From Paenibacillus lutimineralis (GTDB lineage Bacteria; Bacillota; Bacilli; Paenibacillales; Paenibacillaceae), in assembly GCF_003991425.1 (NCBI RefSeq), contig NZ_CP034346.1:3633501-3697500 (forward strand): 64,000 nt of DNA, in the 5' to 3' direction. Within the stretch, counting starts at the first letter, position 1. Each line of letters begins with the position of its first letter. The notes below the pieces were generated by a model that did not search any database, was not told the DNA's origin, and worked only from the letters and a program-made list of their open reading frames with translations. A program made the position numbers and the translations under genes. Positions 7,984 to 28,294 of the stretch are shown here, one piece after another.

Positions 7984-8117
7984 AAAAAAAAGCCGGAGAA
8001 GATATCCTCTCTGATATCCTCCCGGGCTTTTATCCCTCCGTGTCCACAGACTCTTGAGCCTGTGCGTTCTCTCTCGGACCAGTCCAGCGTCAAGCCGCGC
8101 TGCGGAACCCTAGAGAA
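7984..8117 (-). ncRNA. Guanidine-I riboswitch (ykkC class) with terminator
   Basis: The minus strand carries all hallmark blocks of the ykkC/guanidine-I aptamer in order: CTAGGGTTCCGC (complement of 8102-8113), CTGGTCCGAGAG, ACACGGAGGGATAAAAGCCC and CGGGAGG. The last block overlaps a terminator, in which AGCCGGAGAAGATATC and its partner are followed by eight A on the plus strand (a T-run on the minus strand) at 7984-7990. Guanidine binding should prevent the terminator and switch on the SMR pair. A promoter sits directly upstream at 8132-8160. An open reading frame across this stretch is rejected. Confidence 0.96.
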
Positions 8118-8131
8118 CAAAATGTAACCCT

Positions 8132-17638: not shown

Positions 17639-17724
17639 AAAAAAAACAGACTCCTACCAGGATATCCATACCTGGTAGGAGTCATTAGCCTTCACGGCGG
17701 TTATGGCGAACTCCATCGCCTATA
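17639..17724 (-). ncRNA. Fluoride riboswitch (crcB class) with terminator
   Basis: The minus strand reads TATAGGCGATGGAGTTCGCC, then ATAACCGCC, GGCTAATGACTCCTACCAGG and a matching CCTGGTAGGAGTC ending in eight T (complement of 17640-17647). The first two blocks and GCTAATGACTCCT are the diagnostic fluoride aptamer core, and the overlapping GACTCCTACCAGG hairpin is its expression-platform terminator. Fluoride should stabilise the aptamer and allow transcription of the CLC-F gene. A consensus promoter sits right upstream. Confidence 0.97.
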
Positions 17725-17745
17725 TTATTCAAATCACTATGTGAA

Positions 17746-20215: not shown

Positions 20216-22531
20216 CTAATATTCTTCTCTTGAGACTATGAGCACATCCCGCATTGCAGAACTGCGAAGCAGATGCATAAATAGTGCTTCACTAGTTAGC
20301 AAGTGGAGCTTCTTCGGCTTCGCTTGCCCGATAATAATCTGTGATGCGCCCAATTCCTCCGCCCTAGCCAGCAACGCCGCTGTTGTCTCCTTATGCCGCC
20401 TCATCTGTAGCAACTCAAACTGGCCGCCTAATTGCTGAGTTAAGTTTCTGATCTTCACCAGCTCTGGAGAATCATTTCTTATATTATTATTCCCCACATA
20501 GACCACATGCCATTCTGCTTTAAGTCGATAAGCCAGCCGGAAGCCGCGACGGATGATTCGTTCAGCTCCTGCGCTATGAGTAATACATACAAAGATGAAC
20601 TCTTTCTTACGCCACGGTCCCCGCATAGATGTTCTTCTCTCCCATGACTCCAAGCGTTCATCCACGTCGTCGGCCAGTTCACGAAGTGCCAATTCTCTTA
20701 GTGCAATCAAATTCCCCATCTTGAAGAAGGAGTTTAGCGATTGCTCCACCTTCGCCGGGGCGTAAATCTTCCCTTCACGCAGCCGCTGCTGTAGCATCTG
20801 CGGAGTTACATCAATCAGCTCAACCTCATCCGCCATTTGTAGAAGCGCATCGGGAACCCGCTCCCGAACCCGGATTCCGGTCAGACGTTCCACTGCATCA
20901 TTTAAACTCTCAAGATGCTGCACATTGACCGTCGTAATAACGGAAATACCTGCTTCGAGAATTAGCTGTATATCCTCATATCGCTTCTTGAACCTGCTTC
21001 CTGGAACATTGGAGTGTGCCAATTCATCGATCAGAACAACCTCTGGATTACGATGCAAGATCGCTTCTGTATCCATCTCTTCCAATTCAGTCTGCCGATA
21101 CTGCCATTTTCTCCGCGGAATCAACTCCAGCGTTCCGACCTGCTCCTGTGTTTCCTGTCTGCCGTGAGTCTCAAGCATTCCAAGGATAATGTCAATTCCT
21201 TTTGCCTTAAGATGATTACCTTCCCGCAGCATGGTATAGGTTTTACCCACGCCTGGAGCGGCCCCGATATATACCTTCAGCGAACCCTTATGAAGATTCT
21301 TTGTCTGCTGGTTGGCTTCCTCCCAGCTTGCCCGGCGAAACGAAGCGCCCATATCATGATTGAGCTTGGCAGGACGCATGGCCATGATCCGCTCGCCCTC
21401 GCTCTCGGCGCGATCAGCCATCAGGAATAAATCCGTACTTCGCAGCTTGCGCAGCAAGCCTTTAATAACCGAGCCTTTTCTTAATTCCTGCCATATGCTC
21501 ATTTTGGAGTGGCCCATTACGATCCGTGTTATTTTACGCTCCAACGACAGTTCGGCAAGCTGGCCTGCCAGTCTCCTTCGTCCTTGTAAAGGTAGCTCGA
21601 TGAACTCGGCATCGATCTTATCGCATAGTTGCTGAATCGAGCTCTTGAAGGCCCTCTGCTCTGGCGTCAGCTTCACGCCCGGCTTCATATATACGACGAC
21701 AATAAGCTCCCCATTCAACCGCTTGGCGATCTGCTGCCCACGTCTGATATAGATTGAGCCGTTCCAATGATATTGGACGGACACTAGAATTCGCTCCGCG
21801 GTTCCCGAAGGACCGACAAGCCCTTCTGACATGCGATGCTTATCCAGCATATCGTTTACCCCATTGGCCATCAACCTAAGAGACAGCTCTCGAAGTACAG
21901 CTACATTGTCCCTACGGCAAATAGCTGGATGAACCTTATGACCGAGTAATCCGTCTTCAACCCGCTTCAGCAAAGTCTCAGGTGATACATCGATTAATCT
22001 GACCTCATCGGCCATATCCAAGGTTTCCGGCGGTACGGTATTCTCTGCGCGAATTCCTGTATAATGCCTGGCAATGATGTCTGCGCCGGACAATTCGTAT
22101 ACATTGATTGTCGTAATAACACTGATCCCTTGTTCCAGCAGAAATGAGATATCCTCGAGACGAGTTGCGAAGCGCGCCCCTTCCCGATTGCGGTGAGCCA
22201 GATTGTCAACGAGCACTACTTCCGGATTGCGCAGCAAGATTTGATCCAGAGGAAGATCCTTCTTCTCTACTCCCTCCTTCATCCAGTGAATACTCGGCAT
22301 TCGTTCGATTCCGTGCAGCTGCTCCACCGTCTCTTGGCGCTGGGAAGTTGTGACCGCACAAGCAATCACATCGATTCCCTGCGATTTCAGAAGCTGTCCC
22401 TCGCGCAGCATATGATAAGTTTTGCCCGCGCCGCTAGTTGCGCCAATCAGAACCTTAAGTTTGCCACGCCGCATCCGTTCCATATATTGCAATATTTCTT
22501 CAGGCGTCTTCCTTCGATAGGTCATTGACAT
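20216..22531 (-). CDS. KdpD-like protein: two KdpD sensor/USP modules, no kinase
   Basis: A 771-residue soluble protein made of two copies of the KdpD N-terminal module plus a universal-stress-like (USP) domain. Copy 1 (about 20-385) has Walker A GATSGAGKTY and the Walker B-like VVLVDNLAH. Copy 2 (about 415-771) has canonical GAAPGVGKTYTMLREG and VVLIDELAHSNVPGS. Both share EDI..LLEQGISVITT(I/V)N and DEV.LIDV(S/T)P. There are no transmembrane helices and no histidine-kinase domain, and no kdpE follows. Copy 1 has lost the Glu of the DELAH motif. In Staphylococcus the KdpD USP domain binds c-di-AMP. As the last gene of a kdp operon already under c-di-AMP riboswitches, it may sense the same nucleotide or regulate the pump directly; this is inference. 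ATG 22531 follows GGGGGGTG. Confidence 0.85.
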   Translation of the reverse strand: MSMTYRRKTPEEILQYMERMRRGKLKVLIGATSGAGKTYHMLREGQLLKSQGIDVIACAVTTSQRQETVEQLHGIERMPSIHWMKEGVEKKDLPLDQILLRNPEVVLVDNLAHRNREGARFATRLEDISFLLEQGISVITTINVYELSGADIIARHYTGIRAENTVPPETLDMADEVRLIDVSPETLLKRVEDGLLGHKVHPAICRRDNVAVLRELSLRLMANGVNDMLDKHRMSEGLVGPSGTAERILVSVQYHWNGSIYIRRGQQIAKRLNGELIVVVYMKPGVKLTPEQRAFKSSIQQLCDKIDAEFIELPLQGRRRLAGQLAELSLERKITRIVMGHSKMSIWQELRKGSVIKGLLRKLRSTDLFLMADRAESEGERIMAMRPAKLNHDMGASFRRASWEEANQQTKNLHKGSLKVYIGAAPGVGKTYTMLREGNHLKAKGIDIILGMLETHGRQETQEQVGTLELIPRRKWQYRQTELEEMDTEAILHRNPEVVLIDELAHSNVPGSRFKKRYEDIQLILEAGISVITTVNVQHLESLNDAVERLTGIRVRERVPDALLQMADEVELIDVTPQMLQQRLREGKIYAPAKVEQSLNSFFKMGNLIALRELALRELADDVDERLESWERRTSMRGPWRKKEFIFVCITHSAGAERIIRRGFRLAYRLKAEWHVVYVGNNNIRNDSPELVKIRNLTQQLGGQFELLQMRRHKETTAALLARAEELGASQIIIGQAKPKKLHLLTSEALFMHLLRSSAMRDVLIVSREEY

Positions 22532-22584
22532 TTTCACCCCCCGCCCATTATTCCGCCAGAACAAGTTAACCAGATTGGATCAAA

Positions 22585-23211
22585 CTAAGAGTTACCTCTT
22601 GCGATTTGCTCCTGCAGCTCCATATTAAGCCGCAGCACATTTATTCTTGGTTGACCGAAGAGACCCAGATCCCGTCCGCTCGTTGCATCCTGTACCAACA
22701 ATTCCAATATATCCACCGAAATACCTGTCAGCTTGCTGATTCGCGGAATCTGTGATTCCGCCGCTTGCGGCGTAATATGAGGGTCAAGTCCAGAGCCCGA
22801 ATTCGTAATTAAATCGATGGGAAGCTTGCTTAACGGCATATCTAGATTGTCCTTCTTCCATGCTTCTAGCGACGACTCCATCCGCTGCATTAGCTTCGGG
22901 TTGGAAGACGCGTAATTGCTAGAGCCTGAGCCTGCTCCATTGTAATCGATACTGGATATTCGTCCATGGAACAGCTTCGGATCCGTGAAGGACTGACCGA
23001 TCAACTCGGAACCAATGACATCCCCCTGGCTATCCTTAACTAAACTTCCGTTCGCCTGCCATGGGAATAGTATCTGTGCCAGACCTGTACTTGCCAAAGG
23101 ATAAATAATACCGCAGAGAACGATAAAAATGATACTGAAGCGGAGAGCAGCCCATAACGCCGAGCCTGAAGCAGACAACCACGATTGCTTACCTGATTTA
23201 ATAACAGCCAT
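22585..23211 (-). CDS. kdpC: Potassium-transporting ATPase subunit C
   Basis: A 208-residue accessory subunit of the Kdp potassium pump, with one N-terminal membrane helix (LRFSIIFIVLCGIIYPLAST) and an extracytoplasmic domain. Family landmarks are GSELIGQSFTDPKLFHGR, NYASSNPKL, DLITNSGSGLDPHITPQAA and LGLFGQPRINVLRLN. It helps the pump hold ATP or stabilises the KdpA-KdpB complex. It lies 30 bases after kdpB and 53 bases before the KdpD-like gene, in a single operon. Confidence 0.96.
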   Translation of the reverse strand: MAVIKSGKQSWLSASGSALWAALRFSIIFIVLCGIIYPLASTGLAQILFPWQANGSLVKDSQGDVIGSELIGQSFTDPKLFHGRISSIDYNGAGSGSSNYASSNPKLMQRMESSLEAWKKDNLDMPLSKLPIDLITNSGSGLDPHITPQAAESQIPRISKLTGISVDILELLVQDATSGRDLGLFGQPRINVLRLNMELQEQIARGNS

Positions 23212-23241: not shown

Positions 23242-25272
23242 TTAGACCCATAAATGTACGAACAAATCAATCAGTTTAATTCCGATGAACGGGGCAACAA
23301 CACCACCCAAACCAAAGATTAGCAAATTTCTGCTTAGCAGACGCTGCGAGCTCATTGGCCGATACTTGACTCCACGCATAGCAATTGGGATCAAGAGCGG
23401 AATAATCACCGCATTGAAGATTAAGGCGGACAGGATGGCCGAGAGCGGCGAACCAAGCTTCATAATGTTAAGTGCACCCATCTCCGGGATTGCCAGCATG
23501 AACATCGCTGGTATAATTGCAAAATATTTGGCGATATCATTAGCAATACTAAACGTAGTTAACGCTCCGCGAGTCATCAAGAGCTGCTTGCCAATCCCTA
23601 CGACCTCGATCAGCTTGGAGGGATCTGAATCGAGATCCACCATATTCGCCGCTTCCTTGGCGGATACCGTCCCGCTGTTCATCGCCAGGCCTACATCCGC
23701 TTGGGCTAATGCGGGAGCATCATTCGTCCCGTCACCCGTCATCGCAACTAGCTTCCCTTGTGCCTGCTCACGACGAATGACATCGATCTTATCCTCTGGC
23801 TTGCACTCAGCGATGTAATCATCCACTCCAGCTTCTCTTGCAATCGTAGCAGCAGTCAGTGGATTATCACCCGTGCACATAATCGTTCGAATCCCCATTT
23901 TCCGTAACTGCTCGAATCGTTCTTTCATGCCTGGTTTAACCGTGTCCTTGAGATGAATAATGCCATAGATCATTTCATCAACCGCAACCGCCAACGGCGT
24001 TCCACCCGCAGTAGCCACTTGATTAGTAATTGCCTCCAGGTCAGCCGGAATATGTCCGCCTTGGCTGCTGACCCATTTTATAATCGCATCAACAGCCCCC
24101 TTGCGTACTCTTCTGCCATCCTGCAGGTCGACGCCGCTCATACGCGTCTCGGCTTTGAACTCAATGCTCTCCCCGGCAGCGGCCAGGGATTCGTCATATT
24201 CGAGCCCTTGTCTGCGAAGCAATTCAAGCACCGAGCGACCTTCTGGCGTCTCGTCAAATCTTGAAGATACCGCAGCCCAACGGGCAAGTTCGTCTTCAGC
24301 CCTACCATCAACGGGGAGAAATTCAGCTGCCATTCGGTTCCCAAATGTAATCGTACCCGTCTTATCGAGGATCATTGTATTCACATCTCCGGCAGCTTCT
24401 ACGGCCTTACCGGACATCGCCAGAACATTGTATTGAGTTACCCGGTCCATTCCGGCAATTCCGATCGCGGACAGCAGCCCCCCGATCGTCGTCGGAATTA
24501 GGCAGACAAGCAGCGATACTAGCACGGTGATCTCCAGATGAATATTCAAATAATCGGCAATCGGCTTTAAGGTAATGACCACAATCAGGAAAATAACCGT
24601 TAATACGGTAAGCAAAGTTCCTAAAGCAATCTCATTCGGTGTCTTCTGACGTTCGGCACCTTCAACTAATGAAATCATTCGGTCGATAAATGACTGTCCA
24701 GGATCACTCGTAATACGAACAACAATCCTATCACTAACCACCAGAGTTCCGCCTGTAACTGAACTGAAGTCGCCACCAGCTTCTTTTATAACTGGAGCCG
24801 ATTCACCCGTAATCGCAGATTCATCAACCGAAGCCAGCCCCTCGATAATTTCACCGTCTGCCGGGATCATCTCCCCTTGCGATACAACAACAACATCGCC
24901 TTTGCACAGCTCAGAGGAAGGTACGCTTCTCGTACTACCGCCTATTAGTTTGTTAGCCATAACTTGCTGCTTCGTCTTCTTCAAGCTGTCCGCCTGGGCC
25001 TTCCCTCTTCCTTCCGCAAGAGCTTCAGCAAAATTCGCGAACCATATCGTAATTAACAGGATCAAGAAGATGGCCACGTTGACTCCCGTATTGTGATCTT
25101 TACCAAGCAATCCAGGGAACAAAATTTGTAGGAGTACGAGGAAAGCTCCGACTTCTACGACGAACATGACCGGATTCTTGATCATCCATATCGGATTCAG
25201 CTTCTTGAAGCTGTCCAGTACGGCTCCTTGCATCATTTTTCCGGATAACATCGATTTATGCCTAGTGCTCAT
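23242..25272 (-). CDS. kdpB: Potassium-transporting ATPase ATP-binding subunit
   Basis: A 676-residue P-type ATPase that drives K+ uptake through KdpA. The phosphorylation motif [11 protein letters not shown] (Asp303), the actuator TGES loop (155-158), the nucleotide-domain [10 protein letters not shown] and the hinge [20 protein letters not shown] are all present. Several hydrophobic segments lie at the N- and C-terminus. The TGES serine (about 158) is the site phosphorylated for inhibition in E. coli KdpB. The ATG at 25270-25272 has GAGGTG eight bases before; an upstream GTG is less likely. The coding density and order kdpA-kdpB-kdpC match the standard operon. Confidence 0.97.
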
Positions 25273-25292
25273 GTTTAGCACACCTCTTTGAT

Positions 25293-26972
25293 TTATTTTA
25301 GCGTCAAATATTCAGCAACAGGACCTGCGGCAAGAACCGGCAGAAAAGTAAGAGCTCCGATAAGCAATACCGTCCCTACGAGAATTCCAGCGAATAATTT
25401 ATTGTCTGTCCGCAGCGTGCCGATGGTCTCCATGACGGGTTCTTTCTGCATTAAGGATCCTGCAGCAGCTAACAAGGCAATCATAGAAACATAACGGCCC
25501 AGGAGCATGACCAATCCGGTCATGATATTCCAGAACGCTGTATTATCCGCGAGACCCTCGAAGCCGGAGCCGTTATTTGCTGCAGAGGATGCATATTCAT
25601 ACAGTATTTGCGACAGTCCATGATACCCTGGATTCGTAACTGCGCCATACCCTAAGCCAGTCATAGCACTGATTGCCGTCGGTGCAAGCACAATTAAGGG
25701 ATGAACAAGAATCGCAATAGCGATCAGCTTCATCTCCCTAGCTTCAATCTTCTTGCTGAGGAATTCAGGCGTTCTGCCGACCATTAATCCACAAATAAAT
25801 ACACCGAGTATGGCGTACATCACCATGTTCATAAGTCCGACGCCCTTCCCACCGAAGACAACGTTCAACATCATCTGGGATAGAGCTGCCAAGCCGCCGA
25901 GCGGAGTAAGCGAATCATGCATATTGTTGACGCTCCCCGTAGTCGCGGCGGTGGTAATCGCCGTAAAAAGTGCCGAGCCCGTAACCCCGAAACGAACCTC
26001 TTTGCCCTCCATATTTCCTTGCGTGACGTCTATCCCAAGCGTATGAAAGAGCGGGTTCCCGGCCTTCTCGCTGAAATAGACCAAAGACAGAAATGCAAGG
26101 AACAAGACCATCATCGCTGAGAAAATAACCCAACCCTGCTTCTTATTGCGCGCGAATAAACCGAATGTATAAGGTAATGACGCGCTGATCACCCACATTG
26201 ACCACATCTCAATTGCATTCGTCAACCCGCTTGGGTTCTCGAACGGATGGGATGAATTGGCTCCAAAGAATCCACCACCGTTCGTGCCCAAATGCTTAAT
26301 GGATTCCAGCGAGGCCACCGGTCCAAGCGAGATTCGCTGTACAGTCCCTTCCAGCGTGTTCACTGCCGTGGTAGGCTGCAAGGTCTGCGGAACCTGGAGC
26401 GCGACCAGTAGCAGCGTCACGATCAGAGAAGCAGGCAGAAGAATACGGACAATCGCCTTCACAAAATCCTCAAAGAAATTCCCCAGCAGTTGGCCTCTTC
26501 CTGTAATTCCGCGGATAAAAGCGATAGCGGCGCATAACCCCGTAGCGGCTGATGTGAACATCATCATTGTGATTACAGCCATTTGCGAGAAATAGCTAAG
26601 CCCTGTCTCCCCGCTATAATGCTGCAGATTCGTGTTGGTCATGAAGCTGATTACCGTATTGAATGCCAGTGTCGGCTCCATGCTGCCGCTTCCTTCGGGA
26701 TTCCATGGGAACCACTGCTGCAGACTGAGAAGTAGAAAACTGATTGTCATCAATACCACATTCGTTGCCAGCAGACTGATCACATATTTCTTCCAATCCA
26801 TCCCTTCGCGCCGCCTATAGCCGGCTATGTTGAAAATAAACCGCTCCATTGCTCCGAAGATGCGATCACTTCGATTCGGTACATTTGAGAAAACATGATA
26901 TATATAAGTTCCAACCGGCTTCACCAGCAACAATATGACGCCAATCACAATGAACATTTGTAAATAATCCAT
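25293..26972 (-). CDS. kdpA: Potassium-transporting ATPase channel-like subunit
   Basis: A 559-residue polytopic membrane protein forming the K+ selective channel of the Kdp pump. Signature sequences are [72 protein letters not shown] and [13 protein letters not shown]. The four selectivity-filter stretches can be traced in these. It starts at ATG 26972 behind GGGGTGAG. The small subunit KdpF is not found upstream; the 50-base gap to the preceding gene is too short for it. Confidence 0.97.
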
Positions 26973-27022: not shown

Positions 27023-27430
27023 TTATTGCTCAAGCTTTGCTGCAAGCAGAAATCCAACCTCTCCGCTTACGGAATGAATGACATAAGAAGCTCCTAACCC
27101 TTTGTAAATCATGCGCGGATTTCTATTCGGAGTGATAATGAAAATCTGATCACGCGTCCATCTCCGACAGATTTGCAAATAGCGACAGGTTAATGTCATG
27201 CTCATTTCAAAAATATAACAGCGTCCGATCGGAAACGGCGGGACGATCCAGCTCTGCTCGTCATCCGTCTTGATGCGCAGTACATGTCTTACGCCCAGTT
27301 TATGAAGGACTTCTTCCTCCTTCTTGTTGTTCACCAGGACCGCAAAATTACGCTTCGCCGCGATCAGCAGCAAAATAAACTTCAGTCCAACCGGATTCGG
27401 TGCTGCTACTAGAACAAACTCTTCCTCCAC
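27023..27430 (-). CDS. Small Rossmann-like protein leading the kdp operon
   Basis: A 135-residue protein of unknown function. It starts FVLVAAPNPVGLKFILLLIA, then AVLVNNKKEEEVLHKLGVRH, YIFEMSMTLTCRYLQICRRW, and ends DQIFIITPNRNPRMIYKGLG and EVGFLLAAKL. The alternating strand/helix pattern suggests a Rossmann-like nucleotide or nucleoside binding fold, but no classic glycine loop is complete. I choose GTG at 27428-27430 because AGGAGG lies ten bases before and because a longer frame would run back into the riboswitch terminator. Position between the c-di-AMP riboswitches and kdpA implies a role in potassium homeostasis, which is inference. Confidence 0.6.
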   Translation of the reverse strand: MEEEFVLVAAPNPVGLKFILLLIAAKRNFAVLVNNKKEEEVLHKLGVRHVLRIKTDDEQSWIVPPFPIGRCYIFEMSMTLTCRYLQICRRWTRDQIFIITPNRNPRMIYKGLGASYVIHSVSGEVGFLLAAKLEQ

Positions 27431-27472
27431 TTGAGAACACCCTCCTCGAATTTGCAGAGGACAACACAAAAG

Positions 27473-27727
27473 AAGCCGCAGGAAAGATAGTAACCTTCCC
27501 CGCGGCTTAATGAGTGGTCTTAGACCCACTACCCGACCTTTGGTGGTTGCCTCTTCCTAGACGCTTACGAGGTTAGCTGACGGATTCGGGCGCGGAAGTC
27601 GCCCTACCTTGGAGAATACGTTTATCCTCCAAGCGATTCACCCCATGGAACTAAGGTTTAGAAGCCCGCAGATCGGGCATCACTCAGTACCGTTGGTTCC
27701 CCCGCTGCTGTCATATTCACGACAGCA
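27473..27727 (-). ncRNA. c-di-AMP riboswitch (ydaO/yuaA class), proximal copy
   Basis: Minus strand, in order: GCTGTC..., GACAGCAGCGGGGGAACC, GGGGTGAATCGCTTGG, GGTAGGGCGACTTCCG, CCCGAATCCGTCAGCTAACC and CTCGTAAGCGTC, the conserved blocks of the ydaO aptamer (complement of about 27545-27727). It is followed by a terminator in which AAGCCGC and GCGGCTT (complement of 27473-27510) precede a TCTTTTGTGTT tail. c-di-AMP binding is expected to cause termination and so shut off the kdp operon when potassium is ample. Kdp control by this class is known in Bacillus. Confidence 0.95.
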
Positions 27728-27784
27728 TTCAGCGAATTTTAATTGATGTTGCATTGTATTTTAGTTCATTTTTCAAATTAGAGC

Positions 27785-28073
27785 GCAAAAAACCACAGAG
27801 GCAAACGGTCCTCTGTGGCCGAATTCGTTGCGGCTCGCAGTCACCTTTCCTCTCTCATACCCACGCTGACGAAGTTAGCTGACGGATTCGGGCGGTGAGA
27901 GTCGCCCTACCTGAGAAGAGTCCATGGTCTCTTCCTCAGGATTCACCCCTGTCCGAATGGCCTGTGTTGGCTCTCACACCAGCCCTGGCCATTCAGACGA
28001 TGAGCAAGCTGCGTTGATCATCACACAGCAAGCTCTTGTTGGTTCCCCCGTTCTCTGGAACATCCCAGAGATT
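27785..28073 (-). ncRNA. c-di-AMP riboswitch (ydaO/yuaA class), distal copy
   Basis: A second full aptamer lies upstream of the first: CCAGAGAACGGGGGAACC, GGGGTGAATCCTGAGG, CAGGTAGGGCGACTCTC, GCCCGAATCCGTCAGC and TAACTTCGTCAGCG (complement of about 27855-28073). It has its own terminator, where CCACAGAGG (27793-27801) pairs with CCTCTGTGG (27810-27818), with a TTTTTTGCG tail on the minus strand. The peripheral helices differ in sequence from the proximal copy, so this is not a recent exact duplication. The kdp transcript must pass both switches. Confidence 0.95.
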
Positions 28074-28096
28074 AAGCGATCGGAATTGCTTAATAT

Positions 28097-28125
28097 TGAT
28101 TATGGATTGAATCATACCGCTGCAA
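28097..28125 (-). promoter_or_regulatory. Candidate promoter of the kdp transcript
   Basis: Minus-strand TTGCAG (28120-28125) and TAATCA (28097-28102) with a 17-base spacer, about 25 bases before the distal aptamer. The -10 is weak. Confidence 0.4.
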
Positions 28126-28294
28126 GGTTTGACTGTAAAGCCAACTTCCCGGCAAAAAAGGCGATTAATTTAAAGGAATACGAAAATATACCGCTTACAT
28201 TGATGCAACACTCTCTAATTTTCGCTATAGCTCATTTCTACTCTTGATTTTAAATTCTTTTATAAGGCTCCCACAGATTATAGTAACCGACCTC

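Follow-up and report, generated by a model that had tools for sequence, protein, structure and literature searches.

The KdpABC potassium pump operon in the 64,000-nucleotide stretch of Paenibacillus lutimineralis DNA analysed here (the window) is very probably preceded by two complete c-di-AMP OFF riboswitches, arranged in series in the 5' leader of a probable single transcript, the first gene of which is RCK_N-like. Visible in the sequence are two aptamers, two predicted terminators, a candidate antiterminator and a conserved promoter-like site upstream, and the doublet recurs in many relatives. From these features we infer that both aptamers bind the ligand, that each governs termination independently of the other and that they share a transcript; the direction of control is taken to be OFF because that is the direction of the B. 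thuringiensis kdp switch, as published in the main text of PMC6488665. RNA polymerase would start upstream of copy 1 and, at high potassium and c-di-AMP, each ligand-bound aptamer would let its own terminator form. A polymerase escaping terminator 1 would be tested again at terminator 2, so that the pump operon would be fully transcribed only with both aptamers free.

The presence of two aptamers is clear. When the entire window is compared with Rfam by cmscan, RF00379 (c-di-AMP, ydaO/yuaA) matches twice over its full length, both times on the minus strand, i.e. copy 1 at 27849..28088 (79.6 bits, E 7.2e-17) and copy 2 at 27547..27744 (83.7 bits, E 5.4e-18), and both lie far above the gathering score of 38 bits. 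The covariance search thus bears out the sequence-only reading, which had proposed two separate ydaO-class aptamers within a span, 27473-28073, that begins 15 bases within copy 1. Among the 59 columns with a conservation of 95% or more in 70 other aptamers, each copy keeps the conserved core letter at 58, the single departures being U in place of a conserved C in copy 1 (CUAACUUCG) and C in place of a conserved U in copy 2. The copies are identical to one another at 88/146 trimmed core columns, in keeping with the divergence proposed in the sequence-only reading, and are separated by a gap of 104 bases, which has no room for a 60-aa ORF. Two units of aptamer plus own platform, of the same family and ahead of one ORF, constitute the arrangement known as a pseudo-cooperative tandem, and not a two-input AND gate, in which the ligands differ. 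Elsewhere in the window, Rfam matches a guanidine-I riboswitch (8017-8124, minus strand) and a fluoride riboswitch (17669-17729, minus strand).

Each aptamer is followed by a predicted intrinsic terminator, that of switch 1 at 27791..27820 (minus strand, then a U tract) being found by our own terminator scan and examined by stem counts, and that of switch 2 at 27473..27508 (minus strand) by both a tool scan and our own scan; these agree closely with the terminators assigned to the two aptamers beforehand (27793-27818 and 27473-27510). The tool scan found the site at 27508-27473 while returning 3 terminator-like sites per 1.6 kb against 1.5 expected, and so, taken alone, counts for little. Our own scan also places a third, unrelated terminator-like site inside the first gene, at 27377-27351. 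In an alignment of 20 rows, 19 of them distinct (window plus relatives, with L028 left out), 93% of cells in the terminator 1 stem are paired, compared with 41-59% when the strands are slid, and in 3 rows an A-U pair is replaced by G-C; the innermost pair fails in 10/19 rows, and 288/500 shuffles have as many pairs with both members changed. After the second copy, our own scan finds no terminator site in 8/16 relatives, in which imperfect stems are apparent by eye; the same scan missed the copy-1 terminator of L011, which is likewise visible by eye.

A candidate antiterminator strand for switch 1 lies at 27824..27848 (minus strand), between the aptamer and the terminator, and can form a duplex with the terminator 5' arm of -13.9 kcal/mol, a value that 10/500 single-letter shuffles equal. 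The candidate duplex is present in all 17 leaders tested, in each of which it is matched by no more than 41/500 single-letter shuffles. Across the 19 distinct rows, 78% of antiterminator cells are paired as against 37-46% when slid, with 68/500 shuffles reaching 78%; 8 cells are changed on both sides, as in 6/500 shuffles, and these changes fall at 3/9 pairs, a spread that 334/500 shuffles reach. By our reading, the alignment used for both sets of counts (A2) sets the window, L009 and L010 in a poor antiterminator register. The shuffles used for the antiterminator duplex, and for the promoter and post-terminator pairing considered below, keep single-letter content only, and these three tests set aside the Bacillaceae multi-copy loci L034, L055, L060 and L063. 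For switch 2, the window fold calculated before the terminator 3' half has the aptamer CCUCGU paired with the terminator GCGGGG, so that aptamer and terminator would compete directly; this pairing is a single fold prediction, and L009 and L010 fold otherwise.

The operon downstream has in part the composition expected from its earlier description as a kdp operon. KdpA (25293..26972; TIGR00680, PF03814), KdpB (23242..25281; TIGR01497) and KdpC (22585..23211; PF02669), all on the minus strand, are recognized by Pfam/NCBIfam, and KdpA is 96% identical to that of Paenibacillus sp. GM2, among its nearest kdpA relatives. They are followed by a KdpD-like, non-kinase ORF (20216..22564, minus strand), in which two KdpD modules are joined, PF02702 and NF038185 (KdpD_non_kinase) each matching two stretches; the 782-residue product has a match over most of its length in 8/21 genomes, the window's own included, and a literature search on non-kinase KdpD in Paenibacillus turned up nothing useful. 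The operon opens not with a kdp gene but with a 135-aa ORF (27023..27430, minus strand), for which a GTG start at 27430 is inferred from the ribosome-binding site and homologues, the ORF list giving a longer frame from 27529. This ORF has no Pfam/NCBIfam match at E 0.001. Its AlphaFold model (pLDDT 89.6) has TrkA-N/KtrA domains as best PDB matches (best E 3.6e-5, TM about 0.7). By tblastn a homologue is present in 27/60 kdpA loci, and absent from the doublet locus L079; 215 database proteins match at E 0.001 and, among the 120 of these listed, some are named as RCK N-terminal domain-containing. Eight of 21 family members have weak Pfam TrkA_N matches (best E 0.015) and five have ADH_zinc_N matches (best E 0.00011), the window member having neither. 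When the family was searched against PDB sequences, nothing matched at E 0.001, the best being a de novo protein (0.019) and a TrkA K+ channel protein (0.11). The model and the weak sequence matches indicate that the predicted protein has a Rossmann-like fold nearest RCK_N, sequence membership being unproven; it may be a nucleotide-binding protein that acts on the pump.

The survey of related kdp leaders that had been suggested shows that tandem copies are common. The best 80 of 184 relatives with kdpA loci were fetched, and 60 were scanned with Rfam, the other 20 being by title not Bacillota. At least two same-strand aptamers precede kdpA in 20/60 loci (18 with two, two with three), one does in 18/60, and none is found within 2.5 kb upstream in 22/60. 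The 46 Paenibacillaceae loci comprise 16 with two, 11 with one and 19 with none; Bacillaceae loci, 3 with one, 2 with two and 2 with three; and Anoxybacillaceae loci, 3 with one. Of the four remaining loci, from other or unranked sources, one has a single aptamer and three have none. Separately, an opposite-strand c-di-AMP aptamer lies upstream of the kdp leader in 12/60 loci (L015, L022, L023, L025, L035, L036, L037, L042, L055, L059, L063 and L065).

Some of the multi-copy leaders are of other designs. In Halalkalibacter alkalisediminis (L055, 959-1880, plus strand), three c-di-AMP aptamers precede, one after another, an HPr-like gene and kdp; the second and third are 370 bases apart, with no frame over 61 codons and no 9/12 promoter-like site in between, and our own scan places terminators after the second and third copies, not after the first. 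This is possibly a c-di-AMP triplet, in a genus other than Paenibacillus; where PMC9481103 treats c-di-AMP, it gives doublets alone and no triplet. In Alkalihalobacillus bogoriensis (L063, 1265-2136, plus strand), two aptamers are followed by an HPr-like ORF (a weak match, E 0.00039, below Pfam's cutoff), a third aptamer, short ORFs and kdpA. The Bacillaceae kdp doublets L034 (1832-2173, plus strand) and L060 (1830-2189, plus strand) have gaps of 48 and 72 bases, in which our own scan finds no terminator; these are possibly cooperative switches with two aptamers and one platform, of the sort on which PMC9481103, in its main text, speculates.

Within the window's genome, which has eight RF00379 matches in all, a second candidate doublet at 108.7-109.7 kb was rejected, since its two aptamers each precede their own ORF (162 and 163 aa), leaving the kdp pair as the only doublet. 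The two ORFs, read by eye, presumably encode an NlpC/P60-like cell-wall peptidase.

The two types of copy appear to have been distinct for a long time. Of 80 aptamers cut out, 73 entered a first tree and 72 a second, from which the last row of the window's own genome was dropped; left out were five rows from that genome, L025_div and L062_S. The second tree, of 72 aptamer cores over 146 columns and with no outgroup, has long branches, 28/67 open forks and unsettled bootstrap values, and some of the clade tests were chosen with the tree already in view. All 17 Paenibacillaceae first copies and four singles unite in a group of 21 rows (support 91/86, not starred). Second copies fall elsewhere with other singles and make up no single supported clade, and holding them together is not rejected (p-AU 0.306). 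The tests reject a recent duplication that would make the two window copies sisters (p-AU 0.0056), but not a shared origin of the six copies carried by the window, L009 and L010 (p-AU 0.233). The pair of Priestia taiwanensis (L060) groups within its own genome (97/88) and is thus an independent doublet. Because the first copies of Paenibacillaceae cluster with one another and not with second copies, the doublet looks old; the sequences are most simply read as an early duplication followed at times by loss of one or the other copy, in a tree that, having no outgroup, does not itself give the direction.

The series arrangement depends on a single transcript. Upstream of copy 1 the window has a promoter-like site, TTTACA-17-TATGAT (28111..28139, minus strand), with a 10/12 match reached by 2/200 shuffles. 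Every one of the 17 Paenibacillaceae tandem leaders compared, the window's included, has a like site (TTTACA or TTTACT, 17 or 18 bases, then TATGAT, TAATAT or TAGTAT) ahead of copy 1, as do 4/4 single leaders of the copy-1 type, the matches in relatives often being ordinary when taken singly (1 to 51 of 200 shuffles reach them). An internal promoter, which the sequence-only reading had itself named as counting against the series, would make copy 2 the leader of a second start. The gap between the copies is A+T-rich and those of L009, L011 and L033 do contain a 9/12 match (reached by 41, 63 and 42 of 200 shuffles, respectively), but the window gap has no site of at least 9/12, its best being 8/12, reached by 146/200 shuffles, and no site of the one promoter type scanned for is conserved between the copies among the 17 leaders. 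In L032 and L042, moreover, the stretch from the terminator end up to and including base 16 of aptamer 2 is only 25 bases long, which leaves no space for a promoter that does not overlap the terminator. Since the upstream site is constant across leaders and none is conserved between copies, both switches are probably on one transcript, and two transcripts are highly improbable. It is also improbable that one switch alone is functional, the other being a decaying or constitutive copy retained by chance. Leaders with a single copy of either type exist, a sub-threshold RF00379 match (32 bits, E 0.0014, cutoff 38) precedes the single copy of L047, and the departures from the conserved letters noted above affect both window copies; nine other single-copy leaders searched alike have no sub-threshold match ahead of or behind the copy. 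Against decay are the scores of both window copies, far above the cutoff, the restriction of the departures to 1/59 conserved columns in each, and the recognisable platform 1 across 17 leaders.

The alternative that comes closest to the arrangement of two complete switches, though an unlikely one, is a doublet of two mechanisms, in which switch 1 is a pure terminator and switch 2 adds a post-terminator pairing that frees or hides the ribosome-binding site of the first gene. The AGAGGCAAC strand (27546..27554, minus strand) can pair with a stretch after terminator 2, to a degree that 21/500 shuffles equal in the window. That stretch, the GUUGUCCUCU strand (27456..27465, minus strand), whose putative function comes from pairing tests and folds, has two possible partners, 27546-27554 upstream and, downstream, the region around the ribosome-binding site and start. 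Pairing of AGAGGCAAC with GUUGCC-type stretches is equalled by no more than 5/500 shuffles in 15/23 second-type leaders, as such a mechanism would have it, but is intermediate in three (the window, where it is moderate, L009 and L079) and at chance level in five, and the stretches tested for L011 and L037 start before the terminator end. Read-through folds of seven leaders are similarly divided, the stretch pairing downstream with the ribosome-binding site or start in three (the window, L018 and L041), yet upstream in four (L009, L035, L039 and L042), and the implied ligand logic is not clearly OFF. An ancient, non-interchangeable pair, in which copy 1 would gate transcription and copy 2 both transcription and ribosome-binding-site exposure, so reading one signal at two stages with different settings, is put forward only tentatively and is likewise doubtful.

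For two complete OFF switches in series, an independent-switch model with invented parameters (0.1 leak plus 0.9 maximum per switch) illustrates what a second copy may contribute. With two equal switches the floor drops tenfold (0.100 to 0.010), the ceiling goes down from 0.90 to 0.81, and the EC10/EC90 span narrows from 81- to 50-fold, with an effective Hill coefficient of 1.13. If the affinities differ tenfold, the span is 84-fold and the Hill coefficient 0.99, i.e. there is no sharpening. Thus, of the sharper and lower-leak response that had been predicted, the lower leak is reproduced, whereas the sharpening is small, and on this simple model the main gain of the doublet would be tightness, not steepness. 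The term AND gate, used in the sequence-only reading, does not fit closely, since one ligand supplies both inputs, and has been set aside in favour of pseudo-cooperative, the name given in the main text of PMC9481103.

The possible significance of the kdp doublet is that it gives the known but little-studied c-di-AMP doublets a clear physiological target in the high-affinity K+ pump. Many Paenibacillaceae have the arrangement, which is probably old in that family, and leaders with one copy of either type also exist there; leaders with the doublet, with the copy-1 type only and with the copy-2 type only therefore form a natural series for measuring the value of a second same-ligand switch.

Among the literature matches listed, whose coverage lies outside most subscription journals and supplements, none concerned a kdp c-di-AMP doublet. 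In the main text of PMC9481103, 77 c-di-AMP doublets are described and classed as pseudo-cooperative, the aptamers being separated in most of them by an intrinsic terminator; the window is alike in having two c-di-AMP aptamers with a terminator between. That main text does not contain the words 'kdp', 'Paenibacillus' or 'potassium', and its supplements lie outside the comparison, so the present locus may be among the 77. As described in the main text of PMC6488665, a single c-di-AMP riboswitch precedes B. thuringiensis kdpFABC, c-di-AMP binding terminates transcription and K+ limitation lowers c-di-AMP; riboswitch-controlled kdp operons were found in 12 species, Bacillales only, each with a truncated KdpD. 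Again the supplements are outside the comparison, and the main text is without 'Paenibacill'. The B. thuringiensis system resembles that proposed for the window in having an OFF switch and terminator ahead of the Kdp pump, together with a truncated KdpD and no KdpE. By contrast, one aptamer is described in B. thuringiensis, where the first gene is kdpF, compared with two aptamers and an RCK_N-like first gene in the window. The triple-tandem c-di-GMP-I riboswitch of B. thuringiensis, as cited in PMC9481103, provides a precedent for switches in series giving more digital control; as in the window, its switches for the same ligand stand in series, although the ligand and aptamer class differ. The window case is thus not new as a kind, and belongs to the already described pseudo-cooperative tandem riboswitches.
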